Shown here: piece by piece, positions 30,101 to 62,107 of the stretch
How the letters are laid out: the number at the start of each line of letters is the position of its first letter
How positions within the stretch are numbered: the first letter of the stretch is position 1
From: Rhodamnia argentea
Lineage: Eukaryota; Streptophyta; Magnoliopsida; Myrtales; Myrtaceae
Reading direction: 5' to 3'
Assembly (NCBI RefSeq): GCF_020921035.1
Contig: NC_063153.1
Span: 9,486,001-9,550,000 of the forward strand
Length of the DNA stretch: 64,000 bases
The notes under the pieces: generated by a model
The model's database searches: none
The model's input: the letters and a program-made list of their open reading frames with translations, nothing else
What the model was told of the DNA's origin: nothing
Program-made: the position numbers and the translations under genes

Positions 30101-31162
30101 ATGGGCAAGGGCGGTTCTGGTTCGGGGTCGCTGAGCGACGGCGTGGTGAAGAAGATCCTGCTCTCCTACACCTACGTGGCCATCTGGATCTTCCTCTCCT
30201 TCACCGTCATCGTCTACAACAAGTACATCCTCGACCGGAAGCTCTACAACTGGCCCTTCCCGATCTCCCTCACCATGATCCACATGTCCTTCTGCGCCAC
30301 CCTCGCCTTCCTCCTCGTCAATGTCTTCAAGCTCGTCGAGCCCGTCACCATGTCCCGCGAGCTCTACCTCTCCTCCGTCGTCCCGATCGGAGCCTTGTAC
30401 TCTATCTCTCTCTGGCTCTCTAATTCCGCCTACATTTACCTGTCCGTGTCTTTCATTCAAATGTTGAAGGCCCTCATGCCTGTCGCCGTGTACTCGATCG
30501 GGGTCTTGCTTAAAAAAGAGAACTTCAAGACCGACACTATGGTGAACATGCTGTCGATCTCGTTCGGGGTGGCCATCGCGGCCTACGGGGAGGCCAAGTT
30601 CGATACCTGGGGCGTGATTCTCCAACTGGGTGCTGTCGCGTTCGAGGCCACGAGACTGGTCATGATCCAAATCTTGCTCACTTCGAAGGGAATCCAGCTG
30701 AATCCGATCACCTCGCTGTATTACGTCGCGCCCTGCTGCTTGGCGTTCCTGTTCGTGCCGTGGATCTTCGTGGAGTACCCCGTCCTGAAGGAGACCTCGA
30801 GCTTCCACTTCGATTTCGTGATCTTTGGGACCAACTCGTTGTGCGCTTTTGCTTTGAATCTGGCTGTGTTCTTGCTTGTCGGGAAGACCTCGGCCTTGAC
30901 GATGAATGTGGCAGGGGTCGTGAAGGATTGGTTGCTGATCGCCTTCTCTTGGTCAGTCATTAAGGACACCGTGACGCCCGTGAATCTGTTTGGTTACGGG
31001 CTGGCATTCTTGGGCGTGGGGTATTATAATCATGCGAAACTGCAGGCTTTAAAGGCGAAGGAAGCACAGAAGAAGGCTTCGCAAGCGGATGAGGAGGCGG
31101 GAAGGTTGCTGGAGCAGAGGGATGGAGATGGAATGAGGGAGAAAAGAGATTCGCAAGCCTAA
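30101..31162 (+). CDS. Nucleotide-sugar / triose-phosphate translocator family transporter (At2g25520/At4g32390 type)
   Basis: A single uninterrupted frame of 353 residues with no intron. It starts [18 protein letters not shown] and has about ten hydrophobic spans. Strong landmarks are [11 protein letters not shown] near residue 37, [62 protein letters not shown] near residue 270 and a Lys/Ala-rich cytosolic tail. These mark the KVAG-type plant group. Arabidopsis relatives include Golgi carriers of UDP-arabinofuranose (UAfT group), so import of a UDP-sugar for glycan synthesis is likely but not proven here. Codons are strongly GC-rich at third positions in the 5' half. Together with the AFG1-like gene downstream it repeats the At2g25520-At2g25530 gene pair. 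Confidence 0.93.
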
Positions 31163-33180
31163 TTTTTGATCGAATTTAGAGGATAGTTGAATATTGAGTC
31201 GAGTATGGAAATAAGTTATCAGGGAGTCTTGGAGGATACAATTGGTTAGGAGGAAGGGCAAGTGAATTGAGTGTCATGTCTCTCAATTTCCATTTGCACC
31301 ATTTGGTATGTGGCATTTACGTTGTTGTCCGTGTCATCTGCTCGTTAATGATGTCTTGTACTTGTGGCAGGGTCAAGATTCATGTCTATTGCTTTGATGT
31401 GGTTATGTGCTTTACTTGAGTTGAAGAATCTCAATGGCCTGCTAGATTTCCCAGTTTCCCCTTTTGTTCTTCATACTAGCATTGTAGCGACTTTTACTTA
31501 TTGAGTTCAGTGCTTATTGACTCTTATGAATTTTCTATGTATGCGATTTCTTTTGTTAAGTTTCTGGATTTGGGATATATATTGTGTCTTTGATTTCACT
31601 GTCCTTGACTCTTACTTGAACCCCGTGAGATATGCATATGTATGTCATTGTTGGTACTTTTTGAAGGTCAAGCCTTTACGGATTATCCGTAACTGATTGT
31701 CACTGGTTGTTGCAGACACTAACCTAGGCACACTTTTAACTCCTGGTGATGGTAGATATCATCAGTTTAACATTATGAATCCACCAGTTTTGTGACCATT
31801 CTTCCTTTGCTTTCCCTATAATTTTCATGAATAATGAGATGCATATTTTGTTAGGAGATCTGTGATCGCTACGTGGGTGAGTAGATTTCACTCATTTGCA
31901 TTGACATATGATGGAGGAAAGGAATTTGGCTATCATTTCACATTCATTCTGCACTTTCCTGTAGGTATATTGAACTAAGATATAGTATGGAGTTTAAGTT
32001 CAAAATGTGAGTGTGCGAAAATAAAAGCTGCCCCTGAGACTTGGCAAATGATTTAACTGGCACCCTTCTAGCATGTGGAGCAATGCTTGACCAGCCTGAA
32101 TTATCTGTACGTCAAGTCTCGGTTTGGCAGAATTCAACTTAGAGCAGATCATTCTCCATGAAAACTTCCTTTTTGTGTAAGTTTGTTCTATAGTTCACGT
32201 TCCTTGTCTTAGCAGGGATATGGATTCTCAAGAGGTAAATTAGCAGATCATGACCTATCATCCAAAAACTGACATTGGTTGCTGAGAAGTCGCTACTAAG
32301 ATTTTCATGTCAACGCGGATGAAGTCTCATCTAATGATCTCAAATGCATAGCGTTCTAAATTTGCAGCCTCATTGGTGGATGAGAATGAGATGTAGTAAG
32401 TAGCTTGTGCTTGTGCAATATGCATTGTTTTGATGGACTGTTGTGAGCTCCTAACTTTCGAGCTCCTAACTTTCGATCATCTGAGTAGTGCAGTTCATAT
32501 GTAGCAAAAACTAGAGGGAACTGCATCAAGCTCAATGTGGCAAATGAATCTCTGTTAAAGCATGTGTCTGCTTTTCACGACCTGCAAACTTTGTTGCCCT
32601 ACCTTGATGTTTGGATCCTTCATTTATCTGCCCTTGGTCAAACGGAATGAGTTCTTTATCGGCTCGACAGTGGATCAAATCGAAGACAATGTGAATGTTG
32701 TTGTGTTGTGTGTTGCGGTTTGTCTATTCCTTCAGGTCAGCGGCAAACTAAAGAGCAAGTCTCGAACTGGTGCAGAGTTCTCTAAACGTGATGATTCTTG
32801 CCTTCGAATCCCATCCTCAAAGAGGAGAGTGCATTTGTTGGTACCTCTTTCTACGGTGGATTATTCTCTCGTCTCAATAAATTCAACTTTTAAGACTGTT
32901 GCTGCATGGGGACATTTATAGAATTTTAATTTGGCAAAGGAATTTCTTCAAATAAGCAAAGTGAATATTTTTTTTTTTTGGTAAATAAAATGAGCATTTA
33001 TTTGTTTTATTAACTTTCCTTGTGACAAAAAAGTTACCGAGCATTGTAGAAAATAAAACTTGACAATTCACTTTGTAAAGTCGATTGATCCAACAACCTA
33101 TTATTCCTTTCCTTTGCTTGAGATCTAAATATAACGATCTATGTTGTTCTGTTAAAGTATTGTGATTAAGATTATACCTC
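31163..33180. other. Transporter 3' region and intergenic sequence
   Basis: The first few hundred bases are probably 3' untranslated sequence. Beyond that I see only short frames without family features. A 16-base direct repeat (GAGCTCCTAACTTTCG) occurs twice near 32447-32478. Confidence 0.45.
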
Positions 33181-33233
33181 AATGACACTTAAAGTTTTTA
33201 AAGTCATCACAATGGAGCATTCTATCACGGGCC

Positions 33234-33326
33234 GATACTTGAGGGTAGGGTCTATCCGAGGATCGCTAGAGTACCTAGTGATAGATACTTGAGGGTAGGG
33301 TCGATCCAAGGATCGCTAGAGTACCT
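33234..33326. repeat. 50-bp tandem repeat (about 1.9 copies)
   Basis: GATACTTGAGGGTAGGGTC...GATCGCTAGAGTACCT occurs at 33234 and again at 33284 with a few differences. The surrounding 33180-33700 stretch has no gene and could be a retrotransposon remnant. Confidence 0.85.
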
Positions 33327-33700
33327 GAGGTGTAGAGAGAGAGTTTTAGAGAGAAGCTTTGGGAGGAATGCTTTTGTATTTCTTTATAGATTCTCTCTCG
33401 AATGATCAAATAAAGGGAGGAACACCTCTTTATATGATAGTGGACCTTGCATTACAATCGTTGGTCGTATCTCGATCCAATGGCTAATATCGCATCTTCC
33501 CATCTAACTAAGAACAGTCATTAAATAGGAAAATTCTAGAATATGGGACAATTATCATATCGGCCACCCCTTGAGAATAAATAACTCTAGAAAACCAAGA
33601 TGCCTAGACACTTCAAGTCCGGAGGTTTTTCTCGGCCATATGATCGACCGGTTGCATCACAAAAACCTCGGCACATGACAATTCACTAATGTGAATGACA

Positions 33701-34020
33701 AAAATTATAAAATAATCACACAAATGGTGCATAAGGTTGGGCTCAATGTGTAATGTCGTCCTCAAAATTTTAATTTATTTAATATGATTCTCTAACTTCA
33801 ACTCAATGTACGATGTTGTTCCTGCACTTTTAATTTACTTAACGTGATCCTTCAACAATTACCAAAAAGTTCATGGATCATGTTAAATAAGTTAAAAATT
33901 TAGGGATGATATTGTGCTTTAAGTTAAAGTTCAAGGATCAAGTTAAATAAATTAAAAGTTCGGGAACGATATCGTATATTAATTCAAAATTTATGGATCA
34001 TTTGTATAATTTTTTTCAAA
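33701..34020. mobile_element. Miniature inverted-repeat element, same family as 23982-24349
   Basis: The arms are units such as GGGCTCAATGTGTAATGTCGTCC and TTTTAATTTATTTAATATGATTC on the left, and TAAATAAATTAAAAGTTCGGGAACGATATCG on the right in reverse. The inner ends meet near 33850 (TCAACAATTACCAAAAAGTTCATGG). There is no coding content. It lies about 340 bases upstream of the AFG1-like start codon, so it may border that promoter. Confidence 0.65.
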
Positions 34021-34356
34021 TATATATGAGTGTCAAATTTTTTCGTCTTAATTTAATATTATTTATTGCCAAAGGGGTGCTAAATTTGAGTACTCTTCCA
34101 GTGAAACACGGTTTCCACTCGCGAAGTCTCGTTGACGGTCAAAATCCATCCACGTCACTCTTTTCGAACTCAGTCCCAAAAAAAAAACCCACAAAAAGCC
34201 AAGGCACTTTCTGACGTGGCACGTCCAACAGGCCGCCACGTCTAACATCTCCCGCCTCCTATTCCTCCTTTCTCTGCTCTGCACTTCTCCAACTGCAGGA
34301 AAGACATCGAAACGAAGCGAAAGAGCCCTCATCGATCGTTCATCGACCGCAGAGAT

Positions 34357-37300
34357 ATGAATCACCAAGTTGTCATGAGACGAGCTCGCTCAATCGCTCC
34401 TGCTCTCTCTCCGTGGCCTCCTCGCCGTGGCGCCGTCGACGACGCTGTTCGCTTTCGCTTCTGTCGCAGCCTCTCCGGTTCCGCTCCTCCGAATCGTCCA
34501 GGTCATCCCCCCCCCCTCTCTCTCTCTCTGAATGCTTAGCCTCCGGCATTCTAGGATTCCTTGATTTCGGTTCTCTGGTGAGTGGTGACTGCCTCGGACC
34601 TCAGTCTCTGTTAACTCACCGAGCAAATGGTCGGTGCGAGGTTCATGTTTCGTTGACATCTTTCCCGGGCATTGATCAATGATGCGATAAACTCATAAGC
34701 TGAAGCTGGATTTTACGACAAATTTTGATGTGCGGACAACCGAGTGTTCTGTAATTCATAGGCGCGCCTAATGTAGGATTATATCCGTGATGCCAATTCG
34801 AGCTTTTTCTGGCGCAAGTCTAGATTTTTGACTGCGTCATTTATGTCTTGAACAGGAAGGCTACAGATAATTGATGTCATCAATTATTTCTAGCTGGTAA
34901 TTATAAGTAATAGCCACTTGAGAAATTCGACAATCAACCGAAGAAATATGATCGGATTGTGCTCCGATGGTGGACTTATTCCAGTCTTTGAGCTAGTATT
35001 TATCTTCAATGTGTGGTCCACATTGGGCAAATGTTAAGGTGAAAGATAGGTTGTCCTAAAGCACCTTCTTGTAGGTGTCCTGTCTGGCATTGTACTCAGT
35101 GAATGGTATGTGCATCTATGTTAAGTTGTTTAGAGAACCCAACTCTTGGTTCTGAAAGTAAAACCCATTTTCAGGGCCACTCAAACAATACAAGGAACTC
35201 ATCAAGCAGGGAAAGCTGCAGCATGATCCTTACCAGGAAACCGTAGCTCTTGAATTGGAAAATCTACTCGAGCGGCTGGAACAGTATGAGAAAGATATGG
35301 AAGAATATCATGTATCACATTGCATTTGCATTGTTCAATTCATTATTCAATTTGGTAATCTTCTTTAAGGAACTCAAATATGTTACTTATATTTCACTTC
35401 CTGATGGTTTATCTTTTTTCTATGCAGATGAAACTAGCTGATTGGGAGAACAAGAGGGAGGATAAACGCCGCAGGATTTTGATGGAAGAAGCAGAGATGA
35501 AGCAGCATGGAAATGTATGGTCATCAGTCAGCAAGCAGAGAAATAAGCTTGTTGAGAAATGGATGTTTCGGTAGGCCCACTCTAAATGCATTTGAAAAAA
35601 AATTCTGCACTTCAAATATGGTATTTTTTTTCCATGGTTCTTTTCTTGATATTGCTATGAATTTGTAGGCTTTGACGTGGACATAATTTTTGCAATTATT
35701 TATTGATATGAAGCAGGTTACTTTATAGGGATCTTTCTTCTTATTTGACAGATCTCCTATGCAGGATGTCATGGAAGTGCAACTACTCTAGACGTACTTA
35801 TTTTATATATCAACGGCATATTGATCAATCACAAGATATGCTATCGGCTCACCTCATGTGTTACATTTGCTCCTAGTTCTAATTTCTTGGATGATGTCCT
35901 CCCCACTTGCTCTACATTATAAAACTATTGATATTTCTGGAAATAATGCTTCCTAACTCTCATGATAACGCTATTTCACTGGAACTTGACTTCAATTCGC
36001 ACTTCCTTATTTGTTTAATATCACAGATTTCCATAGAGAAATGCATGGATGATAAAGGTCGATGTCTGCTGGCTGCATTGATTTAAGAGGCATGTTTTCC
36101 AATCTTTTCTGCTTTATCAGGAAAGGACCTGAAAACATAGAGCCAGGAGTTGGAAAATGGGTCTCATATCTCAACAGAGAGAGGCAATTGGACTCAGTTG
36201 TTGGTCAGCGTCCTACTGCACCTCCTGCTCCAAGAGGACTTTACCTGTATGGCAATGTGGGCAGTGGTACGTTAGTAAATTTTGCCCTCACAGGAAGAGA
36301 CATGCAGCATAGTTCACTCATTTCCTTGCAGCAGTATAATCACTTAGATTGATTTTCCAATAGGGTTTAGTTGTTCATATCAGCAAAAGAAAAACTTTAC
36401 ACTGGAGTAATTGTCTTCTTACTTACTTTGTACTGCCCAGTTGTTACTTGTAGACCATTAAATTTATTGATAATTATGGTAAAATTGTAGGGAAGACAAT
36501 GCTTATGGACATGTTTTATAGCGCTACCGATGGGATTATTAAGCATAGAAGACGTTATCACTTTCATGAGGTAAATCTTTTCTTCAATGTCTTGAAACTA
36601 TCCCCTTGTTGCAAGCGGTGCTATTGTGTATTCTAAGATTTTGTGGGATCACCACCAACTGTTCTAAAAGCTTAAGCTGGTAAATGAAGGCGCAATTTAA
36701 TATTTATATATCCTAACACTCCCCCTCATGCTTAGTCTGGCTTTTTTGCCTAGTACTAAACGCGGAAATATTTAATTGGGGAGACAAATACGGACCTGGA
36801 AAGATTTGAACTCGGGACCTTATGCTCTAATATCATGTGAGATTTTGTGAGATCACTGCCAACTATTCTAAAAGTTTAAGCTGGTTTAATAGTTATATAT
36901 TCTAAGATGTACGTCTTTTTAGACATTCTTTTTCTAAGCACTTTCCTGAGCTTGTGATGTTGCCTTTCTGGTTTATGTAGGCAATGCTTGAGATTAATGC
37001 ACGCATGCATCAGATTTGGAAGAAACAAGTAGAGGACAAGTCTTTGCAGTCAAGTATCTCTAGCTGGATTATGAATCTCCCCTTTGATTCAAAAGTTAAG
37101 GAATGGTTGGCTGCAGAAGAAAGGTACAAGCAAGAGGTACAGATGAAGAACATCCTACCAGCGGTGGCAGACATGTTTCTCATAGATCAAAGAGAGGATC
37201 ATAGAGGAGCCAGTGTTCTTTGCTTCGATGAGATACAGGTAAACGCACTTGTGCTGTGTCCTAATTTGGTCATTACTCTTGTATAGATGCTACCTTGATT

Positions 37301-40300
37301 GATATATGGGTCTAAGATAACCTCCAGAGAAATCATCTTGTAGATGTTCCCCCGTGTTATATATTTATTTATTTATTTATTTATTTATTTATTTTGGTCA
37401 AAACCCCAATGTTATATGACTCCAAATGTTTTTGCTCTCTAATGCAGACTGTTGATGTATTTGCAATTGTCACCTTATCTGGAATTCTAAGCAGATTGTT
37501 GAGCAGCGGAACAGTTCTTGTGGCCACCAGTAACAGAGCACCAAATGATTTAAATCAAGTACGTCAGCCTTTTGGAAAGCTGCACAACCTTTTTCCTTGA
37601 CTAGCCACTCATTGTACTTCGGAAGCTTTATTTGCTTCTGTATTGCCATGTCGAATTTGTCGGACCTGTATAAGCCATGAGTTTTGCCAGTCGCTGAATT
37701 AGTTAGTAGGTTCGAAGAATTCTGTTCGAGTCTGGAGTATGCTTATCTAATATTAGCAAAGTATGACATTCGTACTTTCTTAATTCTGCTTGCTTCACAT
37801 AACTTCTGCCTTTTGTAAGTTGTTGTGTTACAGGATGGTATGCAGCGGGATATCTTTCTTAAATTAGTCCGGAAATTGGAGGAACACTGTCAGACCATTC
37901 TGATAGGAAGTGACATTGACTATCGACGTCTTATAGCACAAAGAAGCATAGACCAGGTGAAAGACGGTGTCCTATGTTTTATGATTCTTTTAAATGGGAA
38001 AGTGCACAAGTAGACGACCAGTATTTCATATTTCAATCGTATGGTTGTTGAGATGTCAACTATGCAAGTGCAGGCTCATTTTTTCTGGCCTCTAGATGGC
38101 AATGCTCAGAAGGAATTCCAGAGGATGTGGCATGAGATAACAAGCAAGTCAGGCGGACAAATAACTTCTATGACTCTAGGAGTGATGTTTGGAAGGTACT
38201 CCATTTGTTAAGTAGCAGCATGGCTATAGTTTGATGAAACTGCTGTAATGCATATAAATCATAACAGAACGCTGGAGGTTCCAGAAAGCTGCAATGGAGT
38301 GGCACAGTTTACATTTGAGTATCTATGCGGTCGGCCGGTATGGTACTTTCCTCTCTTTGAGATTCAGTTACTTTATGTTATTGGTCTGTCATCCAGTAAG
38401 CTTCTTATTCGAGATCTTGTTTTACATGCATGATGCACAATTGAATCTCTCTTCATGACGGGTTAACATGGGTGCAGCTCTGTTATTTAGCGGCATGATG
38501 TGAACCCTTTTGTAAGGGAGAGTATTCAAAATATACGACCTGATTGAGACAGGAAAATGGAATAAATGAGCTAAACATCAATGTATGCACTGCTGAGTAC
38601 AGTATCTTGGAAAGCTAATCGGATATGTTGCTAATTTTGCGTTCTCTTAGTAAAGGGATGAAGGTAACAAATATCCCTGGACTTTTTTAAATTGTTTAAT
38701 GAGGTCCCTGAACTTTTTTTTGTTTATGCGATTGGTTCCTTAAAGTATATGCTTTTTTGTTCCAGTTAAGGAAATGTGCTGACGTGGACAGATGCATCGG
38801 CACCACATTAATGCTGACAAGACAAATTAGTGCTTGCATATAATTTTCTTGTGTGCTGGATAACATATCCAAAAACTTGCAATAACAAAAAACCAAACCC
38901 TAAGAGAAAAAAAGAGAGAAGGGGGAGGCAGTAAGGGGCAGTGGTGGCACCCCCCATATTTAAGGGGCAGCAAGGGGCAGTGCAGCAAGGCGGCACCCTT
39001 GCCGTCTGCCGTCTGCCGTTTGCCGTCGGGGTTCGGCCAACCCAGGCCACACATGGCCAGGGTCCTGCAGGCTGGGCCAGATCTGGCCTGGGGTCGCGAG
39101 TGTGGAGCCATATCCTAGGGTGGCACAATCCACACCGCTGGTAACCAAGGTTGCCCGACCTTGGATCATATTTCCTTTTTTCTGAGAATTTTAGAATATT
39201 AAATTTTTTTTACTGTTCCATAAATGTAGTACCTTTATTTATTTATTTTCTTGAATCCCATTAAGGGTGCCTTGTCAGCATTTGACGGCAACTTAAGGGC
39301 TATGACAGCATTTCCTTGCGTAATATCAAGCGAAGGCCCAACTTGAAAAGGAAAAGCATATAGTTTAAGGACCCAATTCACACAAAAAGAAAAGGTTCGT
39401 GTACCTGATTGAATAATTTGGAAAAGTTCAGGGAACTGTTGTGCCTTTATTCCTTTAGAAAAATAGTAGTTGCTGATGTTAAAGTACTAAGAGTAAAATT
39501 TCTTCATGATTTATAGAAAAAGAAATGATTCTACATCATCTCCATTGCTTTGTTCCACATGCAAGGAAGTTAATTAATCTTGTCAATTTGATATTTTCCT
39601 GGAAGTCTAGTAATGTTCTCTTACCTTCATTTTAAGGACAATGTCTCTGAACTTTCAAGTTAAGTTTTGATAAACGACCTCTAACCTCCTTTTATCATGT
39701 CAAGGTTGTTGCTTTTGTTCAAGGTTTTTCCGTCATGCACAGGTGGGAGCTGCAGATTACATTGCAGTTGCTAGGAACTATCATACTGTCTTCATATCTG
39801 ACATTCCAAAAATGAGCATGCACATCCGTGATAAGGTACATTACCATTTTCCAAGTACTGACTATTCATTCTGGAAATACTGCTTCATGGAATCTCTTAT
39901 GTATGGAGGACAATGGTATCAAGTTCTGATAAGATGTAAGTAGAATATTTTCTGATCGGACATGCAGATGAAAATGTAACAAACTCATACATGTTGAAAA
40001 TTTTTATGTGTGTGTGGACGCATGTGCGCCCTTCGAATACTGTTTATATACGGAGTATTTAATTCTGTACCTGTCTCTCAACAAGATGGAAAGCGATTTT
40101 TGTTAATCTTACCCGCTTTTATGCAGCATTTCTCATCGATTAATTTGTTTACAAATTTTAGGCAAGGAGGTTTATCACCCTCATCGATGAGCTATACAAC
40201 CATCACTGCCGCGTAGTTTGCACTGCAGCTTCTTCTATTGATGATTTGTTTCAAGGAACTGAAGATGGTACTCTGTTTGATTTGGAGAGGTGAGTCCTTT

Positions 40301-41726
40301 TTCAGTAAGATAATTATTCCATCCATTGCAGTCCGGAGACATAAGCACAGATGCGGTCTTCAGGCTTCAAGTGTTCTGATTTTCCCATGTTGAAACTTCT
40401 TTGACTTAAACGGTTTGGTCCTGCCTCAGAATTTAACAACTCGTCTTTTTATAGCAATGGAACATCTAAATGGACCCGTTTTCCTGCAGTTTTCCCGCCA
40501 TTTTATTTTAGTAGAAGCAGCATCCTAGGCCTATATTCCTGTCCACGGAGATATATCCTATATAGTTGAGAACCTCTAAGAGAAACAATGATGGCATAGT
40601 AACATGTGTTCTTTCATCACTTTAATGATTTAAGGATTTGTATCCTATAATCTCCATTTTCATGATGCAATATGACATTTCTGAGTGGAGCTTATAGAAA
40701 TGAGAAAATTCCTGGTGCACGGAAAGAAAGAATGGGAATATCATGAATGGAAAACCCTGGTTAACATTGTTATCCATGTCCCAGAAACTTGCTATAGCAA
40801 CTATGGATATCAAAACTAGGAATTAGTAGCCACTGCAAACCCAATACTTCCTACTTTCAATGTTCTAGATTTTGTTCTACAACTGTTTTGCTTGTGTTAA
40901 GTTGATTTGTGCTGGCGCAACAGGAATTTTGCAACTATAAAATATTTCCGTGCATTAACTTTGATGCTTGGTGGCTTGATTCCACACTATGAACTTATCA
41001 CTGTTTATGTATACTTGCCTTGCCAGCTTTCAATTTGAGACTGAGATAGAAGGAAGTAAACTTCGTCGGGATGTCCTAGCAGAAGGCAGTGTGAGTTCTG
41101 GAGGTGCACCTACTGGGATCATATCCATGCTATCTGGTGAAGAAGAAATGTTTGCATTTCGCCGAGCAGTAAGTGATCCTCTTTGATCTCTCTCTCTCTC
41201 TCTCTCTCACGACTATAGCTGGATACTATGATTGTTTTTCTCTCGCTACTTGGTGAAGGGTGCAGAGCTGCATTTGTTGGGCAGAGTGCACTTTCATTGG
41301 ATGGCGCCATTGCATGAGATATCATTAAAATACTAGTGAGACAGAAACAAAATAGTGAATGAACTGTTTTAATATCGTAACTACACAGAATTGCTAGTAA
41401 ACTGAGCTCTATTTTCTTGCTTGTTTTAGTTTCTTGTGTCTTCTTTTTCTTACTATTGATGCATATTGCACTGGATGGATGATATGGATCTGATCTAATC
41501 TTGTACGGTTGTTTCTACGCTTGATCATTTTCTTCTACTTGGACTTTCCCAATAGCACCCTAACATGTAGCTGTCCTTCCTCAGTTATGGCCCAGGTCCT
41601 TTTCTGAACTTTATGAGCTTGGTGCAGGTATCGCGCTTAATTGAAATGCAGACACCTTTGTATCTGGATGGAGTTCAGAGTTTTCATCCTTCTTTTGAGA
41701 GACATCGCCAAGAATTGCAACATTAA
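34357..41726 (+). CDS. AFG1-like mitochondrial AAA+ ATPase
   Basis: Fourteen exons: 34357-34501, 35175-35311, 35428-35570, 36121-36266, 36491-36570, 36981-37238, 37448-37558, 37834-37956, 38074-38195, 38268-38337, 39743-39835, 40162-40289, 41027-41168 and 41628-41726. They give an intact 598-residue frame with GT-AG introns. The N terminus is Arg-rich and lacks acidic residues for about 27 positions, as in a mitochondrial presequence. GPLKQYKELIKQGKL opens the conserved region. The Walker A motif GNVGSGKT is near residues 185-192, split by an intron. Walker B LCFDEIQ is near 298, and the sensor-1 ATSNRAPNDL near 330. The C-terminal block RRFITLIDELYNHHCRVV is typical of AFG1/LACE1 ATPases, which assist turnover of respiratory-chain proteins at the inner membrane. 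Intron 5 carries a TRIM element and intron 10 an inverted-repeat element. Confidence 0.93.
36632..36906 (-). mobile_element. TRIM (terminal-repeat retrotransposon in miniature) in an AFG1 intron
   Basis: Two direct repeats of about 70-87 bases (36632-36718 and 36836-36906) share GATTTTGTG-GATCAC and CAACT-TTCTAAAAG-TTAAGCTGG. Read on the minus strand, the sequence after the first repeat is TGATATTAGAGCATAAGG (ends at 36835). This is a good match to the plant tRNA-Met primer site. Before the second repeat is the polypurine tract GAGGGGGAG (36719-36727). The internal part is about 115 bases and codes for nothing. It is antisense to the host gene and sits within intron 5 between clean splice sites. 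Confidence 0.8.
37363..37395. repeat. (TTTA)n microsatellite
   Basis: About eight TTTA units in intron 6 of the AFG1-like gene, 50 bases before the exon 7 acceptor. Confidence 0.9.
38654..39453. mobile_element. Inverted-repeat element with GC-rich core (in AFG1 intron 10)
   Basis: The left end GGGATGAAGGTAACAAATATCC continues as CCCTGGACTTTTTTAAATTG-TTAATGAGGTCCCTGAAC. The right end in reverse complement reads GGAATAAAGGCACAACAG, then TTCCCTGAACTTTTCCAAATTATTCAATC. Farther in, both arms share a GCTGACGTGGACAG-like segment. The core (38930-39170) is GC-rich and contains short CGTCTGC repeats. No protein is encoded. The flanks TTAGTAAA and TTTAGAAAA may be a decayed target duplication. Confidence 0.7.
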
Positions 41727-42499: not shown

Positions 42500-43211
42500 T
42501 ACTGTGTATATTCAACATTGATCTTGGCATCAGGGTATCTTGAGAGAGCATTGAAAGCCTTGTTAGTTAGATACGATCATTGTTGCAGGGCACAGCTTGC
42601 TTCGACAGAAATCAACCACTTCAACAAAGATGGTTCCTTCTCTGCAGGGCCTCTTTGTCCACTGATGCATCTCACTCGATACCATCATCAACAGGCTGTT
42701 CCATTGTCACATAAGCCATTGCTCGCTGCAATGAAATACCCTCCTTCAGGGAACTGATCCGGGTTGTGTCTCTTGCACCTCATGGCTACATATTAAGACT
42801 AGAAGAAACAACAAAGCCGAAGTAAGTTTTTCTTAGGCACCCTTTCAGATTACATGCAGGAGCTAGGATGCTAAAACTTTTACATAGCAGCCATAAGAAT
42901 TTCTTATGTTGCAGATCGTTCTAGTTGATTTCTGAGCAGCATTAACAAGTTTTGTGGGTCATAAATTCCATCAAAGAATTCTTCCTGTTTTCTTCTCTTC
43001 CCTCCATCTAGAGATTTGACTGACGATGGCCTCCATGCATTTGGTGCTGAAGGAAGGTAATATAAGAAAGATGTTGGAACAGGAATATAGAATTGACCTC
43101 GTACATACGCAAATATGGAGGATCATAAGACATGGCAGTTCCTACATGCCCTAGAACTCTCAGAATAACTAACAAGATTATTAGATGTAGACTTCGTAAG
43201 AGTGACTTCAT
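42500..43211 (-). pseudogene. EG45 / plant-natriuretic-peptide-like pseudogene
   Basis: On the minus strand, exon 1 (43109-43211) is still open and reads a signal peptide MKSLLRSLHLIILLVILRVL followed by GTAMSYDPPYL, with a GTATGT donor in the family's usual place. Exon 2 (about 42500-42775) can be followed as NPDQFPEGGYFIAASNGLCDN-GTAC, but it then hits two stop codons. After VRCISGQRG a one-base deletion shifts the frame before CREGTIFVEVVDFC, and another stop follows. It is a broken tandem copy of the intact gene at 45262-45889, on the same strand. Confidence 0.85.
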
Positions 43212-45261: not shown

Positions 45262-45889
45262 TTACGGGATATATTCGAGGTTGATTTTGGCAGACGGGGA
45301 CTTGGAGATGGCGGCAAAGGCGCTCTTGGATAAGAGAATGGTGGAGGGGCATGGAGACTTGGGGCAGTAGTCCACGACGGTGACATCCACTGTGCCATCC
45401 TTGCACGGCCTGTTGCTGCCGCTCAGACACCGCAGCCGATACCGTCTCTTGCAGGCGGCTCCGTTGTCCCACAACCCTTCGCTCACTGCCACAAACAGAT
45501 TCCCCGGAGGAAACTGGTCTGCCCTATACCCATTGCATCTGGTTGCTGCCCCCAAAGGAAAAAATGAAGGTAAAAACAAGTGTAAAGGGAGATACTTGAT
45601 ATATCATATAGTGCGCTATGTCACGTATGAGTGTTCCCCATGCTTTTTGGCCGATGTGCCGAACGAAAATTCATCATAGGAATAACCCTAAAATAAGTTC
45701 CGCCGGCTGAATTAGTTTGAAGGCTGAAAAGAGGGAGAAGAAAAGGAAAGTGTATTATGTAGGTTTGTACTTACGGGTGTACGGCGGATCATAGGAAGAA
45801 GCAGTCCCAACGTCTCCAAGAACGAACGAGCCCATCTCTTTGCTCATCAAGCTCATGAATACTACCATTGCCATTGCTATCCGACCCAT
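45262..45889 (-). CDS. EG45-like domain protein / plant natriuretic peptide-like
   Basis: Two exons on the minus strand, 45889-45775 and 45545-45262, give 132 residues. A signal peptide (MGRIAMAMVVFMSLMSKEMG) precedes GTASSYDPPYTPT, which continues across the intron. Then come QFPPGNLFVAVSEGLWDNGAA, RRYRLRCLSG, CKDGTVDVTVVDYC and SPCPSTILLSK. Six cysteines in the mature part fit the barwin/expansin-like double-psi barrel fold with three disulphides. Family members such as AtPNP-A are small secreted proteins that affect water and ion balance. They resemble expansin domain I but lack the wall-loosening C-terminal domain. The first upstream ATG after the TATA box was chosen as start. Alternative name: kiwellin-distant/barwin-related, which I consider less fitting. 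Confidence 0.88.
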
Positions 45890-45957
45890 CTCTCTCGGCA
45901 GCAAGTTTTGGAAGTCAATCTTGCAAGTTTCGAAGACCAATCTTATTCACGTTTGAC

Positions 45958-46042: not shown

Positions 46043-46046
<4 letters not shown>

Positions 46047-49440: not shown

Positions 49441-49489
49441 GGAAGATTATCCAGCGTGTAATCATGCCTTTATATGGCATATGCGTCAT

Positions 49490-49940: not shown

Positions 49941-49991
49941 TTAGCCTTCAGCGGATCTGAGTTTGGGTTTAGACTGGGTTGACCGGTCTGT

Positions 49992-50085
49992 AGAGAGAGA
50001 GAGAGAGAGAGAGAGAGAGGGCCTAGCTCTCCTCCTCCCACCTTTGAAGAGGGCCTAGCTCTACTCCTCCCTCCTTTGAAGAGAC
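49992..50085. repeat. (GA)n tract and short direct duplication
   Basis: About 14 GA units are followed by two copies of GGGCCTAGCTCT-CTCCTCC...CCTTTGAAGAG, in the leader region of the BT1 gene. Confidence 0.85.
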
Positions 50086-50608
50086 GACATACCCAAGCAC
50101 ACCCAATATAAAAACACGCTTGAACGGTGACACAACACTACACAGAAAGAAAAGGGGGATTCACCTACCCCTCTTCCTTCTGGCAAAGTTTTCGACCAAA
50201 ACCTCCATGCTTTGTTTTTTTTTAATATAGTTATCACCGTCTCTTCTCTCGAATTCTTCACACCAAATACCCAAGAACCGGATCTTCCAACTAGCAGCAT
50301 TTCCCTTATTCCCTATTGTGCTCTTTTTGCTTTACGCCGTCCACCACTTTCGAATCAAGTATTCAGCTTTTGCCTTTACCTGTTCGTTAAAAATCCAATC
50401 TTTCCCTTCTTATTTACTTGCAGTGGATATGCAACCATGAAACATTGCTCTGGGTGTTCGTCAAATCCCATTAGGAAGCGCTTTTATGCCGTTTTGCTTG
50501 GTGGGTAGAGGAAGAATCCCAGGTTTGTGTTACAAAAGTTGGGATTTTTTGTCTCTTCTAATTCGTGAAAAGCACTGGATTTTTAGTTTGTTGACGAGGT
50601 TTTAGTAG

Positions 50609-52987
50609 ATGGGCAAGAAAGCAGCTCACTTGTTTGACGATAATAAGGATGGGGTTTTGTCTATTAGTGGCTTGGGGTCACCATGGAGTCTCCGGGATGA
50701 TGAATTCTATCCTGGAGGTGGATTATTTGCCAGTGTTGGTCAAATGGGGAGGAATTTGGGCGTTCCGCCAAATCCCCCCAACGCTGCGGACACAGGTGGT
50801 GGGGGTGGCAGCGGCATTAAGATGCCCTGCGTTGAATTATTGGTCAAGTATGTGTCTTTTCCGAAGGGAATTGGGATACCAGGTGTTTCCGAGGAGGAAG
50901 GGACAGTAAAGAAGAAAAATATTGGGCTTAGACTGAAAATAAAGGTTAAAAATCCTTCATTGAGGAGGTTGATTAGTGGGGCGATTGCTGGGGCAGTTTC
51001 ACGAACCGCCGTGGCCCCTCTGGAGACGATTAGAACGCATTTGATGGTTGGGAGTAGTGGGCATTCCACTACTGAGGTCTTTCGTGATATTATGAAGCAT
51101 GATGGTTGGATGGGCTTGTTTAGAGGTAATTTGGTCAATGTGATTCGCGTTGCTCCTAGCAAGGCCATTGAGGTAGGCAGGAGTTCTTTTTTGCTTTTGT
51201 TTGCTTAATTTTAGTGTTTTAGCCACTTTGTGTCCATTGAGATGCTATTTCCTTGACTGGTGCTTCAGAGCGTTTAGTTGTTGACCTTGTTATCATTTTG
51301 GTAGATATGAATATTTCCAATTACTTGATCATTCAGGAGATCACCATACATTGGTTCGTATGTTACAGTATGGAAAGTCTATTGAGCATCCATGTAGTCT
51401 GAATTGTCAACTGTCATTAAGGTTTGTGCATGACTGCTAAACTGCTGTTTTCAATCTGTTATCCACTGCCTTGAATATTTGTATCTTGTAAGTGGTGTGC
51501 TGCTTGTTGTGGTTGTAGGTTTTGCTTTGTTGGGATTTTTGGAAATTAATCAATGGTCATGAGATCTTCATTGATTCCTCAAAGTTCTATGCATTGCATG
51601 ACTTGATTCAGCTTCTCTTGGCTTTTCTGGCTTGTTGAGGGAAAAGTTGATGCTGTGATGCTCATCTTGAATGTGATTTCACTGGCAAATAAGTGGCAAA
51701 AATATTTTGTTACTTGTTTGACCATGCTTTCTAGTCTTTCAGTTGCACTTTTGAGCTGCATGTGTTTCTTATTCTAGGGACAGCTCATTCGACTTATGAG
51801 CTAACTTTATTCCTGCATTTGATTATGTTTTTTAGAAGTTCTCCGCATATGCAGATATAAGTATTCAGCATATCAATATATAAGTCTTCTCTACAAGCTT
51901 TCTAGATTGATTCTCCAGTGTAACAACTTCTCTCTTTTTTCTACCTGGAAAATGTGTCTCCTTTCTGCAGTGATGCTCTCTTTCATTTAGTCACCTGTAA
52001 ACAATCTTATCATATGAATTTTTTTTTCTTCAATCTCTTTGGAGCTTCGCTGTCATTGCAGATCTATTCATGATGTGCTGTGTGGTAGGCATGTAGTTTG
52101 AAGAGATCTAGTGTTAGAAACTTAACATTTAACTAATGCCTGAGATTTCTCTGTCCTTGTATCCTTGCTCTCAGGTTTAATCTCTCCAGCTTCTACAATC
52201 CTTTAATTTATCCATTGAACTTCTGGTCCCATGTATTGCAGCTATTTGCTTATGATACGGTCAACAAACAGTTGTCGCATAAACCTGGGGAACAGCCGAA
52301 GCTTCTGCTTCCTGCCTCCTTAATTGCTGGTGCCTGTGCTGGTGTGAGCTCAACAATATGTACATATCCTCTTGAGTTGATCAAAACTCGACTCACCATC
52401 CAGGTATAGTGCCACGTCATTGCTAACATGATAATATTGAACCTTGCCATTGCTAACATGATTCGGTTTACCTTACCAAAAAAAACATGATTCGGTTTCC
52501 TTCCCTGTTGCAGAGGGGAGTTTATGATGGTATGCTTGATGCGTTCTTGAAAATAGTCAGGGATGAGGGACCTGCAGAATTATATAGAGGCCTCGCCCCT
52601 AGCCTTATCGGAGTGATTCCATATGCCGCCACCAACTATTTTGCTTACGACACGTTGAGAAAAGCGTATCGGAAGTTTTTCAAGCAAGAGAAGATTGGGA
52701 ACATCGAGACCCTTCTCATCGGATCATTAGCTGGCGCTGTTTCCAGTAGCGCTACTTTCCCGTTGGAGGTAGCTCGGAAGCATATGCAAGTGGGAGCACT
52801 CAGTGGAAGGCAGGTGTACAAAAATGTGATCCACGCACTTGCGAGTATACTTGAGCAGGAAGGGGTTGGAGGTCTATATAGAGGTTTAGGCCCTAGTTGC
52901 ATGAAGTTGGTGCCTGCTGCGGGGATATCTTTCATGTGTTACGAAGCATGCAAGAGGATACTGGTCGAGGACAATGAAGAGGCATAA
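50609..52987 (+). CDS. BT1: Brittle1-type adenine nucleotide carrier (mitochondrial carrier family)
   Basis: Three exons (50609-51172, 52242-52403 and 52514-52987) give 399 residues. A long N-terminal extension of about 115 residues, Gly-rich around GGGGGSG, precedes the carrier domain and is typical of plant BT1 proteins, which are found in plastids and mitochondria. Three repeat signatures are present: PLETIRTHLMVG, PLELIKTRLTIQ and PLEVARKHMQVG, each followed by a Gly-rich YRG-type or FRG segment (GLFRGN, ELYRGL, GLYRGL). Six membrane helices are expected. Arabidopsis BT1 (At4g32400, SHS1) exports newly made adenine nucleotides from plastids. Substrate here is by homology. It lies tail to tail with CESA1, matching At4g32400 and At4g32410. 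Confidence 0.92.
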
Positions 52988-54207: not shown

Positions 54208-57200
54208 TTAGCAGTTGACGCCGCATTGACCTTTCGGAGCGGATTTCGTGGAGTCTGAGGTGAAAGGGTCAATTCGTACCCAGAGCAATGAGAATATGGA
54301 AGCAAGAAGGATAGCCCACACAATAACAATCGTCGGAGTACGATTCTGCCGACCCAACAGACCCTTCAGGAATGGGTAGAGGTGAGCAATAACCCATATG
54401 GCAAAGAACAGCTTGCCGAACAGTGGACCCCATGACTGATACCCGCTGTTAATCGCATAAGACACACCTGCTACAATGCCAACCAAGTTTACAATAAGAA
54501 CTGTGGTTGGAGGAATGAGAAGCGATGTCCATTTGAAGACATAAAGCTCAGCAAAGTCTCCGTCTTCGTCTGCTGCTTTCGACGTGACCGTAAAGTTGGT
54601 ATCAATGCCAGCAAGCACTTTGAGAAGCCCTTGGAAGACAGCAAAAAGGTGAGCAGATGTACCGCCAATGACCCAGAACTGCTCATTTCTCCACCAATCA
54701 TCAATGCTGACACCGCTCCAACGGATTTCAAGAATACCAGTTGCGAAAATTGAGACGAAGAGGAGAATGAACCACATGCTAGCGAAGTTGCTTATCTGCA
54801 ATTTTTTATAACAATGGATCAGTCATCAGATAAACGAATAGAGGAAGAAACTTTAATTACGCTGAAATTACTAGCATGTAGCTCTAGATAGTCTAGCATA
54901 GAGTCAACTACATTAAGTTTATGAATTCGCTAGTGCAGCATAGTAAAGAGAATATCTAATAAAATTGGAAACTGGCATAGCAATTGAGCAATCGTTTGTC
55001 CATGTAGAGTACTTTAAACAGATAAATGATGCAGAAGAGCCAGGACTACCTTCTAATTGGTTTGAAGGTCAAAAAGATGCAGATAATTGACCTTAAGGAT
55101 CATGATCATACTCAAAGAGTACAAAGAAGAGTCCACCTGTGAAGAGGAGGATTTTGGTAACCACACGGTAAGGACTCCTAGAATATGGTTGACTTGGGGC
55201 TTTTTACTCAACTATATCAAAAGGCCTAAGTTTACTGGCTAGCAGCTGAATATTATTCGACCACCAAAGCCGTTGTAATGATGTTTAGGCAGCTTCTTCA
55301 ACTAATGTTCCCTAATGGTTTCTCATGCATCTCCAGCTTTATTAAAACAGGATGGGGAGCCAGTTGAAAACTGAATATTAAGAGAACAATAACTCCATAC
55401 CAAAGAGGTGGGGGTGCTAGGATCAGATGACAGAAGCAAGCAAGACCCTTCTTGTTCATCTCACTTAAGTAGAGTCAACGTGGATTAAAGGACAACAAAC
55501 CAAAGCAGCACACAAGATTGAATACTCTACATTGAAGAGAGGTGTATCACTTACCTCAGGTATAATAAATTTGTTAGTGAGAAGACAAAATGCAGGAAGC
55601 GTACAATAGGCAATCAGCGGTATTGAGGTGAGGGGATACACAATTGTATTGATGTACGCCAATCTCTCCAAGAGCTTCAATTTCCCATTGTATCCATACC
55701 ATATAGGACAATGCCTGCTTAGCAAAATCTCAATTGACCCCAAGGCCCACCTGAGAACCTGGTTTAAACGATCAGAAAGATTGATGGGAGCAGACCCCTT
55801 GAATGCTGGGCGAGGAGGCATGCAATATATTGAAATCCAGCCACGAGCATGCATCTTAAATCCGGTCAAAATATCTTCTGTAACAGAACCATATATCCAT
55901 CCAATCTGTTTGCAGCAAGTACATCAAGTCAATTCCTACTATATGACATGAAATTTTACGGATGGAATAGAGATCGTATAACGTACCTCTTTGCCCCATT
56001 CAGTCTTGTCCTCATAGCCACAGCTAATAACATGGATGGCTTCTTTCAGAAGCGTTGCAGGATTGGTAGATGGTGGTAGGCCACCCTGTTCCATGAAAGT
56101 AGCTGCAATGAAAACTGGAGACTGACCGAATCTTTTCTCTAGACCTTTCTGAGACATCAGGAGGGACCTCTCATCATCATATCCTACAAAACAAATTGGT
56201 GCTGTTAACATTTATCGCACTTTGCAAAGGTTAAGTAAACAATTAAGTGACATCAAAAGAAAGCAACATTGTTCGGTTCATTCTAAAGTTTGGTGGTCCA
56301 TTAAGGGCAAGGGAAGATAGCCCAATCTAACATATATTCAGGCTAGTTTCATCGGTAATCATGGAGTAATTCCAGGCATTCAGACCATAATAGGTCTGTT
56401 CTCTTACGTCCAAATATAAGGAAGGAAACTCATAATTAAATCAAGACCTACCTTCAACACCCTCCTCAACATCTTCCATGTTGAAAATTGGAATGGTGGA
56501 TTCAGTTCTTGTCATTGCTCTTTTCTTGTCAATGTACTTCTTATTGCCGCCCTTTCCCTTCTTTCTCGAACCACAACAACTCTTTACAATAATATTTGGT
56601 TCCAGATCTTCCTCAGTCAATACAGGGTCATATCCATAAAGGGCTTGCCTGTTGAAACAACATCCAGTTCCAACATAGACAGGGCCTTGGATGCCGTCAA
56701 GCCCTTTCAAGTTAATCTGCATTCAGATTGCGAATATGAAAATCTAGCACATAAAAAAGGCAACAAATGAACATAAATAACTAGCATTTTAGAAGTAGGA
56801 AAAAAAATGAAGAGACACCTACATCAAAGAAGACAATGTTGCGGTTAGCATATCGATCATGCATGTCAATCCCATCAAAACGCTGTGGGAACTGCACATA
56901 GCACGTCTTCCTTCCATAAGCAGGATCCATCATGAAACACATTGCTTCTTTCAGTGCTTTACTGTTATTGAAGTAGTGATCACAGTCGACATTCAAAAGA
57001 TATGCTCCATTGGTTAGGACGGCAGAAACACGGATCTACATGACATAAAACAAAAAGTTACACATTCAGAAATGCCAAAAACTAACAAGCAGATCTAACC
57101 AGTATCTCCAGCAGATAAGAACAACATTCAGACAAGCAGCAACACAGCAAAATCAAACACTAACGTTTCTCAAAGAGAAATAGTGTTCTTACTATAAGCT

Positions 57201-58731
57201 AGAGACAGCACTATCAACATTATGATCCCGCATAATATACATATAGATATATCTAACTGATCCTTGAAAAAAGGAATTCGCTGTACATTTTAACTGAAAG
57301 TACAAAAAGTATAAGCTTCAGGAAGGTAGCATGAACTTGGAATGCAATTTCTCGAATCAAGAGATCCATTAATCAGGATCCTTATGCATATAGATACGCA
57401 TTTCAATGCAAGCAAGCAATGAAGAACCTAAATAAAGAAGCTAAACTGAAAAACTAAATCACAAAGACACCAAGATATACATCCATGCGTTTGCAATTAC
57501 AGCTGTCAGCCTGTCACTAAAAGAGACACATAAGAAAAGCTACATAAGATGTATAGAGATGACGAACCAAAGCATTCATGGCTCCAGCTTTTTTGTGATG
57601 TTGGAAACCAGGTCGCTTTTCACGAGAAACATAAACAAGTCGAGGTAGCTCATTTCCGTCAGTATCCAGTCCTCCACTGTGGCCCAGGAAAACCTATTAT
57701 GTTTTACAACAAAAAGAAAACATTAACCAGACACATAAGAGAGGATAGGGTTGATTACTGGATAAGAAAGTATACCTGGATCATTCCAGGATGATCCCTG
57801 GGGTTATTTCCAGGCCAGGAAGTGCCATCCTGCATTGTCCACCCTTCTTCTGGCGTCTTTTGCGCCTTTGCAACTAAAGCATTGATTCGAACCTTGAACT
57901 CCTCATATTCTCTCTATCAAGCATATATCAGACAATTTTAAATTGTATGTACAAAAACATTTCTAATAGATTATGCATCTGACTAAATGCTACATTGTCG
58001 ATAGGCAAACTACCAAATCAAATTTGTCCTTTCCCGAGAAACTGAGTCACAAAGGTAAAATAGGTTATATGTGGGCCTCCCAAATGACCTTCATTTCAGT
58101 TTTTCAAGAACTTACAAAGTAGTGCTTCTCTAGACAAGGACCACAAAGGCGAAGAAAAAAGAACAAGGACTAAAAGGTATCTGACAAAAGGAGCAAGAGA
58201 ATTGGCAAAGCATTCACAAAACTATCCAAGTCTTTTACATGTCTTTACACTATGCGTGCAGGTCACATATGACAAACATGATATGGTTACAGACAGGGAA
58301 GCATTCAGTGACTATGTCTAGGCTCCTATGACAGCATGCAAGTACCAAATACCCAATACGTCCCATAACTCACCTTCATTGCTCTGCGTTCTTTGACAAA
58401 AGAAGGTTGTATCTTGTCCTTCAAGTAATCTATTTTCTGGGCAAAGTAAAATTCAGGAGCTCGTGGCTCAATGTTGTGCTTTTTGCAGAACGGCACCCAC
58501 TTCTTTGCAAACTCGGCAGTTTCAGAGAGGGCTTCAAAAGTCAACATCGCAGATCCATCATCAGAGACATAGCACGACACTTTGTCGACAGGGTAATCCA
58601 CTGCCAGTATGGACAAGACAGTGTTCGCTGTTATGAGAGGAGGTTCTTTCAAAGGATCCACAGTACTCACAAAGACATCGACGGGAGCCAACTGTGAAGG
58701 TTCCCCTTCACGATCATATCTACAACACAAA

Positions 58732-58786
<55 letters not shown>

Positions 58787-61700
58787 ATGGTGACGATGTA
58801 TCCGGAAAGATTAGCCTTGTTCTAAAGTTTAACTCAAACAGCAGTTGAGCGAACGCAACAAAAACTGGATGAAAAACACTACCTCAAAGCAAGCCTGTCA
58901 AGGTATGTTTCCCGATTGATGGGAAACCATTTTGGGAACTGATCCAAAAGCCAGGATAATGCAAACCAAATCTCACAAATAACCGATATAAGCCACAAAG
59001 GATAAGCATCTTTCACCGGATGTGTTGTACGATACTGTAGGAAAAACCCCAAAATAATCAACCGAAGGATAATTACAACGCGGTAAGGAGTGAGGTGAGA
59101 CGACGATATAGGCACCACACGACTCAGAGGTTGACGAGCATCATCAGCCCTGCAAGAAATACACATCAATGACTATGATAAAGGCACCACAACTCAGAGG
59201 TAGACGAGCATCATCAGCCATGTACATATACAGAAACAGAAAGGGTTTATATTCCCTATTGAACTCAATGCAAAGCAGAGGTATGAATATCAACCACTTA
59301 AACATGACCTTCAGACAGATCATGTTACAGATTCACAGTTTGAGAAAGCGTCATTATATTTGCAGATCTGTTTGTTAGGTGGACTATGAGTAGGATGGAG
59401 GCTAGCAGTGTAAATTCCACAGCATTTCTAGTGTATTAATAAGTAAGCAGAAACTCATCAATCTCAAAATCTGACCAAAATCAAAAGCCCCTCCCAAAGA
59501 ATTTGCAACTTCTCCTCTTTCAAAAGAAAAAAGTTTAGCAATTGCTGGCATGGATCTTAAACACCATGACAGTCATCACCGAAACATTAAATCTGCATTT
59601 TTATCCCAACCGAAAAGGTGGCCATGCGGAAGCTAGAGGTTGCGCTAGATTTAATTTCGTCAATTAAATAAGCAAACAGAACAAACAAGCTCAAAGAATA
59701 ATGAAACTAAATAATTAAAAGTTGATAGATAATATTTCCGAAGGCACAATTTGTCAATAGTCCTCATTTCAAAAGACACTTACATTTGAAGTTCTTCTCC
59801 ATTAGAGCCAGTGCCTTCTACGTCTCCCTTCCCTTCATGATATTTGTTTGGCATCTGCGTCATATTTTTATCTTGTTTAAGTTTCCATCCTTCAACCCTT
59901 TCCTTCCAGTCAACATTTCCTAAGCCATAAGTATTCAAATCCTTTGATGGATCCACAATTCGAACAGGAACTGTTATGCCAAAGAAACAGGCAACCAACA
60001 TAAGCAACGCACATCTCTTCCAATATAAGAGCACAAAGTACAGAAGTTACTGTAAAACCTGGCTGTCTAGGATCAACATAGGGAAGCGAGTGCACATGTT
60101 TGTCAGAAGGACCCAGAGGTCCAGATGTAGTCCTTACAGATTGGTTGTCAGGTGTAGCACAGGGGATTTCACCAGACACCTGTAAATTTTAAGGCACAGT
60201 GGGAGACAATAATGTAGCTTTTTCATCTTGACTGTTCAACAACATATTAAACAAGGTGTACTGAATCCCAGAAAAGTGAACAAATGTTTGATGTGGAAGA
60301 AACAAATAACAGGAGACAATAGCGATAACTGTATTGTTTCCACACCCGATGTAAAGCTACCAGATAATACTGACAATATTTTTATACAGTAATCTCATGA
60401 GCGCAACTAGAACAAACTAGATGCCATGAGAATATACTTAATAGGAAAAGATCATATATCTCCAGAAAGTGATAAAATCCGGTAATGTAAATACTATAGT
60501 CGATATAATATCAAGAAGTTTATCATGTAAAATGTACGTAATGGAAAGGTACACGACGTTGAGAACTTATCAGACTGCAATTAGTTGCGTACCGGCTGCC
60601 CATTGGTTAGAAGAGGGATTGGATGTTGAGATTCACGTCTAGAAGAAGAAGAAAGATCTGGATCTTCTCCTTGCCATTGTCGCCTTGCAGCGCTGGTTCC
60701 CTGGGTATAATTGAACTCATTCTCCAGGTCATCGACCTCATCCTCATCATCATCTCCTTCAACTCGAGGAGTTCCTGTGTCATGAATACCACGTTGACTT
60801 TGTCACTTACTATGTTGAACAAGCAACGAAATATGACACTGCAGGAACCATATTAAAAAAAGCTGACCTTTGTGCCTCTTATACCGACACTTGCACTGAG
60901 GACATGATTGGTTACCATCTTTCCTTTCATACTCATAGCAGGGACGGCACACAGGAAATGCGCACTCATTGCAAGCAACAAATACATCCCCGTTGGCAGT
61001 AAGTCCAACAGTATCACCACATATCTGACAAATCTGGCCATTCAAATTTTTCAGGGGTTTGGGCTGCATCACAAATACAATGACCAATCATCAGACTCCA
61101 TCGTAGACAGAAACTAATGATTTATGCTTAAGGTCTTCTCCTCCCTCATATCCCGAGTTCATACGATGAGGAAATTGAGTGTAAATTGCATTGAAATATT
61201 GCGGGAATTGGTGACTGTGTGAAAGCGTAGTGAGCAAGAAAGCAGTTCAACCAATGTCATTGCACTTTCAATCATCAAAGCAAGAACAAGGACTTACTCA
61301 TACTTTGATTGTAAAACATCTAGTGAGTTAAAACAATTGGAAGAGATAAGATACGTGAAACAATCACTTTCAGTTGGATAGTTAAACAGTGATGTCCACG
61401 TCAAAGTGTCTGAACTATTCCACTCCCGAAGCAGTATTACAAAAGATGCGAATAATCTAGATCTCAGCTTCTTGCCCGAATATGCTATTGAACAGGGGAC
61501 CCGGTAATTATTTTACAGAAGAACATAAACATCATTGGAAGAAGACAATCAAACAAAACAACTAAGATCTGGCAACCCGGAGGGAGAGTTAGAACAGAGA
61601 AAAGAAAGACAACTCACATCGTTGACCAAGATAGTTTAAACATGACTCTGCCATGACCGCCATTACAAAACTAAGCATCGAAGCGCAAACAGAAGAATTA

Positions 61701-62107
61701 GATTGCCAGAATTGCTACAAATCCATGTTGACCGATCTAGGAACGAAAACACTCGACGGCACCAGAAAGTGAGCACAACCCAAGACTGGCTCCAAAACTA
61801 CCGACACTCCGATCCAAACATTGCTACCACTGGTAGTCGAAGGTTCAGCATATAAGAGCCACAATTAGGAAGCTGACGGCCACCAAGAGCAGAGTTAGAG
61901 CTCACAAGCCAGCCTTGGGCGAGCAACACTCAGATCAACACACCCAGAACTCAACTCGATTTCGCAGGATTCATTAAAAGAAAAAACCGGCAAATACAAG
62001 GAAGATGAATCGAGCAAAACACTCACTCCACCGTCCGAGTCGTGACGAATCCGGACCAGCTCGTTCCTCTTGTACGATCCAGCGACCATACCGCCTTTAG
62101 CCTCCAT
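54208..62107 (-). CDS. CESA1: Cellulose synthase catalytic subunit, CESA1 type
   Basis: Fourteen exons on the minus strand: 62107-62027, 61063-60868, 60774-60593, 60179-60059, 59970-59784, 59149-58883, 58719-58374, 57913-57776, 57693-57568, 57035-56823, 56716-56452, 56183-55987, 55905-55555 and 54795-54208. They give 1085 residues, close to Arabidopsis CESA1 (1081). The start [20 protein letters not shown] is the CESA1 signature. A Cys-rich RING-type zinc domain lies near residues 38-85, followed by an acidic variable region. Two membrane helices come next, then the glycosyltransferase family 2 core with VSDDGS near 398, NVDCDHYF near 565, VTED near 783 and QVLRW near 822-826. Six more helices follow, and it ends GQCGVNC. 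The protein makes beta-1,4-glucan at the plasma membrane in rosette complexes of primary walls, with CESA3- and CESA6-like partners. All active-site residues are present. Confidence 0.96.
58735..58782. repeat. (AT)n microsatellite at a CESA1 intron 3' end
   Basis: About 24 AT units. On the gene strand it ends only about 15 bases before the acceptor AG at 58721-58720, so it fills the region where the branch point would lie. Confidence 0.95.

Follow-up and report, generated by a model that had tools for sequence, protein, structure and literature searches.

Names have been published for the Arabidopsis genes of the segments that come closest to the locus described here. UAfT1 to UAfT4 appear there as At5g25400, At5g11230, At4g32390 and At2g25520 (PMC5773217), CESA1 and CESA10 as At4g32410 and At2g25540 (PMC6309453), SHS1, HY5 and OCP3 as At4g32400, At5g11260 and At5g11270 (PMC2890015), and UAP56 as two loci lying next to each other, At5g11170 and At5g11200 (PMC3608606). 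These were compared with a 64,000-nucleotide window of Rhodamnia argentea nuclear DNA with spliced genes [contig NC_063153.1, here C4, positions C4:9486001-9550000; the genome comprises 346.7 Mb and 74 contigs], in which genes for a nucleotide-sugar transporter (NST), an AFG1-like ATPase, a BT1/SHS1-type carrier and CESA1 lie in that order. The window is very probably the near-complete member of a pair of duplicated segments derived from one old row, UAP56-NST(UAfT)-AFG1-BT1/SHS1-CESA1-HY5-OCP3-At5g11280-like.

Close locus numbers are taken as chromosomal closeness throughout. At4g32390-At4g32410 (UAfT3, SHS1 and CESA1) reproduces the order NST, BT1, CESA1 of the window and of a second block elsewhere on C4. 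No locus number is free for AFG1 in this segment, and HY5 and OCP3 are numbered on chromosome 5. At2g25520-At2g25540 includes UAfT4, At2g25530, which we take to be AFG1-like, and CESA10, and presents NST, AFG1 and CESA in window order with BT1 missing. At5g11170-At5g11280 contains the UAP56 pair, UAfT2, HY5, OCP3 and At5g11280, that is the outer genes together with NST, again in window order; it includes neither CESA1 nor SHS1, both numbered on chromosome 4, and presumably no AFG1. A preliminary description of the window had compared only the first two segments and concluded that the window keeps an undivided, pre-duplication order, from which Arabidopsis lost BT1 from one copy and AFG1 from the other after genome doubling. 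Its comparison of rows is sound in outline, and five of the loci that it used (At4g32390, At2g25520, At4g32400, At4g32410 and At2g25540) bear the expected names in print. However, At5g11170-At5g11280 is a third partial segment that was absent from that comparison, and because it exists a single doubling with two losses is too simple. The block also extends past the four genes considered.

The order NST-AFG1-BT1-CESA1 is given by four complete, open, spliced models, and Pfam agrees for each. NST is a single exon at 30101..31162 on the plus strand (353 aa, open reading frame model) that matches PF03151 (TPT) at 7.7e-23, above the curated cut-off. The Arabidopsis neighbours suggest that this TPT-family transporter may be UAfT-like. 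The AFG1-like gene, at 34357..41723 on the plus strand, has 14 exons encoding 598 aa, with the stop codon from 41724, and all of its internal exon junctions are GT/AG. Its predicted protein matches PF03969 (AFG1_ATPase) at 3.3e-72, above the curated cut-off, and Walker A (GNVGSGKT) and Walker B (VLCFDE) motifs can be read in the model. The mitochondrial-carrier-family gene at 50609..52987, also on the plus strand, has 3 exons (50609-51172, 52242-52403 and 52514-52987) encoding 399 aa, and Mito_carr is matched in 3 stretches (2.5e-77, above the curated cut-off). We take it to be of the BT1/SHS1 type, as opposed to other carriers, from its neighbour genes.

CESA1 is on the minus strand at 62107..54208, with 14 exons encoding 1085 aa (coding exons 62107-54211, then the stop). 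The predicted product contains PF03552 (Cellulose_synt, E 0) and PF14569 (zf-UDP, 1.1e-43), both above the curated cut-offs. Its closest solved chain is 8vhz, with 2392 bits versus 1825 for the second, a lead of 567 bits; 8vhz is presumably soybean CesA1. The plant CESA domains and the closest chain place the predicted protein in the CESA1 class of cellulose synthases. Both ends of the four-gene block are exact: the start codon of NST lies at 30101, and that of CESA1, which is read from the minus strand, at 62107. Within CESA1, the first 51 bases of exon 6 (59149-59099) recur as a near-repeat (88%) directly upstream, at 59219-59171 in intron 5 on the minus strand, and this constitutes a partial tandem copy inside the intron. 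Upstream of CESA1, the region 63260-63800 is made up of imperfectly repeated AT-rich units, by eye possibly a decayed mobile element.

In woodland strawberry, Table 3 for Fragaria vesca fosmid 01I13 [GenBank accession EU024823] gives homologues of At5g11280, OCP3, HY5, CESA1 and SHS1 in that order (PMC2890015), which is the order of the window and its right flank. The table leaves out a single gene site that falls between CESA1 and SHS1, and CESA1 is numbered as site 7 in the table and 8 in a figure legend. If the window follows the strawberry order, HY5 should sit past the 5′-end of CESA1. No HY5 was detected inside the 64-kb window (best E 0.63). The right flank does contain HY5, an OCP3-like gene and an At5g11280-like gene, in the order expected beforehand from the fosmid. 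In window numbering, continued beyond 1-64,000, HY5 is located at about 69283-68855 on the minus strand, 6.7 kb beyond the CESA1 start, and its product matches bZIP_1 (PF00170) at 5.6e-14. We assume from its core sequence that this bZIP protein is HY5 rather than HYH. Next come the OCP3-like gene (about 75642-73720) and then the At5g11280-like gene (about 81563-82510). The names of these two are presumptive, drawn from family motifs (KWFEDKR for the OCP3-like protein) and from position, because Pfam reported no family above cut-off for either protein. On the left flank, UAP56 was found at about -6217 to -4721 on the plus strand, 35 kb from NST, and had not been predicted beforehand. Its closest PDB chains are those of the UAP56/SUB2 group (human UAP56/DDX39B 279 bits, SUB2 234), and the best outside that group scores 90 bits. 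The block is thereby longer than four genes, with UAP56 on the left and HY5, the OCP3-like gene and the At5g11280-like gene on the right.

A second, inverted and collinear block is present at C4:27162217-27222526, 17.6 Mb from the window on the same chromosome. It begins with a second CESA1-class copy, a spliced model at C4:27162217-27170627 on the plus strand, which is adjoined by a second BT1 copy (C4:27171634-27174930, minus strand) and followed by a second NST copy (C4:27180780-27181832, minus strand) that is 87% identical to NST of the window. A second UAP56 copy, on the minus strand, lies 39 kb beyond the second NST. UAP56, NST, BT1 and CESA1 have relative strands + + + - in the window's block and - - - + in the second, and read in reverse the second block gives these four anchors in window order. 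A long open frame between its BT1 and NST was taken, by eye, as a PPR gene. The spliced CESA1 models are identical at 1016 of 1081 aligned residues (94.0%). By tblastn the second copy has 87.6% mean identity to CESA1 of the window and the next locus 71.7%; this comparison covered 14 CESA-type loci (two short fragments and one partial), the closest of which alone entered the comparison of blocks, and from other cellulose-synthase-like loci only L001 and L002. Under a crude uniform placement, the chance of this co-location is 1.8e-9 when three other near-full-length NST loci are counted, and 8.2e-9 when 14 NST-related loci are counted. Two more NST loci, each a single-stretch match, lie at C4:16150851-16171570, one open (78%) and one (74%) with one in-frame TAG.

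The second block contradicts the view that the window is 'undivided' or 'pre-duplication', and a window unduplicated in its own genome was rejected. That view supposes that the genome is unduplicated here, that the window keeps the order that preceded a single Arabidopsis doubling and that only Arabidopsis lost one gene per copy. It is in keeping with the four-gene order, which is real, and with the complementary subsets on Arabidopsis chromosomes 4 and 2, but the collinear segment elsewhere on C4 and the third Arabidopsis segment both speak against it and leave it very unlikely.

The two blocks of C4 differ in gene content. In a stretch of 49.9 kb of the second block, tblastn (E<=0.5) found no trace of AFG1 or HY5, and the sole match to OCP3 (E 0.29, 23.5 bits) is noise. 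When 30.0-53.5 kb of the window was compared with the second block by blastn, NST and BT1 were the only genes matched, and the other hits were short and repeat-like. Across the genome, the AFG1 protein matched only the window's own locus (14 exon matches, E<=0.001), and a Pfam model search found a further AFG1-family locus at C4:7.05 Mb. HY5 has one full-length genome match, in the flank of the window, with weaker bZIP matches on C6 (73% over 52 residues, and 46%), C10 (48%) and C7 (40%). Matches to the OCP3-like protein are confined to the window's flank, and the At5g11280-like protein matched the flank and a relative on C2 (48-57%). The second block is without AFG1, HY5 and the OCP3-like and At5g11280-like genes, four of the eight listed.

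With this second, fractionated copy in its own genome, the window is one of two duplicated segments. Because all three Arabidopsis segments are ordered subsets of its row, the ancestral order is at present seen best in the window with its flanks. Duplication of the whole genome, or of a large segment, would have given rise to two copies of the row, from which genes would then have been lost one by one (fractionation). Here, the second copy would have retained UAP56, NST, BT1 and CESA1 and shed AFG1, HY5, OCP3 and the At5g11280-like gene, and in Arabidopsis the row would have been left as three partial segments on chromosomes 4, 2 and 5. We infer the whole-genome nature of the duplication, the loss, as opposed to original absence, of the missing genes, and the number of rounds in Arabidopsis.

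The absence of AFG1 from the second block, and the consecutive locus numbers on Arabidopsis chromosome 4 that leave no AFG1 between them, would also be expected if the row had been assembled secondarily, with AFG1 (or BT1) moving in independently here and in Arabidopsis. On two separate occasions AFG1 would have had to insert between NST and CESA, whereas losses are commoner, and CESA1 and SHS1 are neighbours in the strawberry table as well. Secondary assembly is extremely improbable.

Divergence between the copies was estimated as synonymous substitutions per synonymous site (Ks). Nei-Gojobori Ks values are 0.68 for the NST pair, 1.57 for BT1 and 1.25 for CESA1. Because both segments are on one chromosome, the second block may have arisen by segmental duplication on C4 and not by genome doubling. 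Their separation by 17.6 Mb in inverted orientation fits such an event, as does the location on C4 of all four NST loci with at least 74% identity over at least 315 residues. However, the strong divergence (Ks 0.68-1.57) and the lack of four of the eight genes point to an old event, and a segmental origin is considered unlikely.

A further possibility is that the genes have been kept together by co-regulation, with the light regulator HY5 beside CESA1 and a transporter of wall precursors near. Published locus numbers place poplar CesA Potri.018G029400 (PMC8869787) beside HY5a Potri.018G029500 (PMC11924409) and CesA Potri.006G251900 (PMC8869787) beside bZIP Potri.006G251800 (PMC7919096). They likewise place tomato SlCesA1 Solyc08g061100 (PMC12794220) near SlHY5 Solyc08g061130 (PMC8012583), and rice OsCESA11 Os06g39970 (PMC4062502) beside OsHY5L2 Os06g39960 (PMC12473966). 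These loci are a selection, and not a survey, with names that were checked in print, and the poplar and rice genes are taken simply as CESA genes. For rice BT1, a place beside a rice HY5 gene was also sought by locus number, but none of the papers found gave the BT1 numbers searched, and the idea is not used. Together with the common strawberry fosmid, such neighbouring CESA and HY5-type numbers would suit co-regulation, but CESA1 and HY5 are on different chromosomes in Arabidopsis and the second block holds CESA1 without HY5, so that co-regulation as the reason for the row has little probability. A stronger form, in which CESA and HY5 have been neighbours since before the monocot-eudicot split through shared cis-regulation, as a functional domain and not by inertia, is scarcely credible. 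If true, it would couple a master regulator of light signalling to a cellulose synthase of the primary wall.

Several points weigh against descent of the window and the second block from one duplicated row. The Arabidopsis, poplar and strawberry neighbourhoods were compared at the level of published numbers or tables. The strawberry table extends from At5g11280 to SHS1, and AFG1 and NST are not among its rows. In a comparison of poplar bZIP genes, collinearity of the two HY5-type genes was reported with pineapple and with none of the five further species (PMC7919096). Within the second block, the 29 kb between the 49.9-kb stretch and UAP56 were covered by genome-wide searches and not by direct reading. 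The uneven Ks values do not support one common date. The CESA1 copies are hardly closer to one another (94.0%) than to 8vhz, with which the window CESA1 shares 92.7% and the second copy 91.8% identity. Site patterns rooted on 8vht comprise 6 sites that group both copies, 5 that join the window CESA1 to 8vhz and 2 that join the second copy to 8vhz. This leans weakly towards a duplication later than the split from the soybean lineage; because the identities and site patterns are near even, the duplication may also be older and go back, for example, to the gamma triplication.

Between AFG1 and BT1, the window carries two EG45-like loci, both on the minus strand. The locus at 45265..45889 is open in two exons with an approximate splice junction and, with the exons joined by hand, matches PF03330 (5.1e-10, above cut-off), identifying a double-psi beta-barrel protein. 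The other, at about 42508..43151, was found by tblastn with the window's own EG45 and has in-frame stops, 3 in the tblastn-aligned stretch, whereas the genome search counted 3 TGA plus 1 TAA. A working EG45 pair was rejected on account of these stops at about 43151-42508. The 'EG45-like pair' reported previously does correspond to two loci, but they are one open gene and one pseudogene. No trace of EG45 was detected in the 49.9 kb of the second block (tblastn E<=0.5), and the pair looks local to this lineage. Three further EG45-like loci lie at C4:9656253-9686731, 124-155 kb from those in the window. The family appears locally expanded because 9 of the 11 matches outside the window are on C4.

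Other features surround the row. Polygalacturonase-like exons occupy 22861-25854, to the left of NST, and GH28 was confirmed on the exon at 25618-25854. Pectin-lyase-like genes presumably lie beside At4g32390 and might extend the block. A tRNA-Gly (TCC) gene was identified by ARAGORN and Rfam at 28573-28644 on the minus strand. Exons for ankyrin repeats and a PGG domain are found at 8141-14647, with repeat-rich DNA between them at about 9.5-12.1 kb. Outside the window, a long open frame on the minus strand at C4:9466003-9468828 (locus L009) may be RNA-dependent RNA polymerase-like, of the RDR kind, as judged by a motif only.

Gene loss that follows duplication is familiar, and the window is a tidy and unusually clear new instance of it; the searches in print covered papers naming several of these loci at once, and the whole block is not claimed to be unpublished. 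As a test case of uneven loss the locus is small and clean, since NST, BT1, CESA1 and UAP56 stayed duplicated and AFG1, HY5 and the OCP3-like gene did not. The reading of the Arabidopsis CESA1 and CESA10 regions is also corrected, in that three segments, and not two, need a joint explanation. For this plant's lineage, the row supplies markers with which the duplication could readily be dated.

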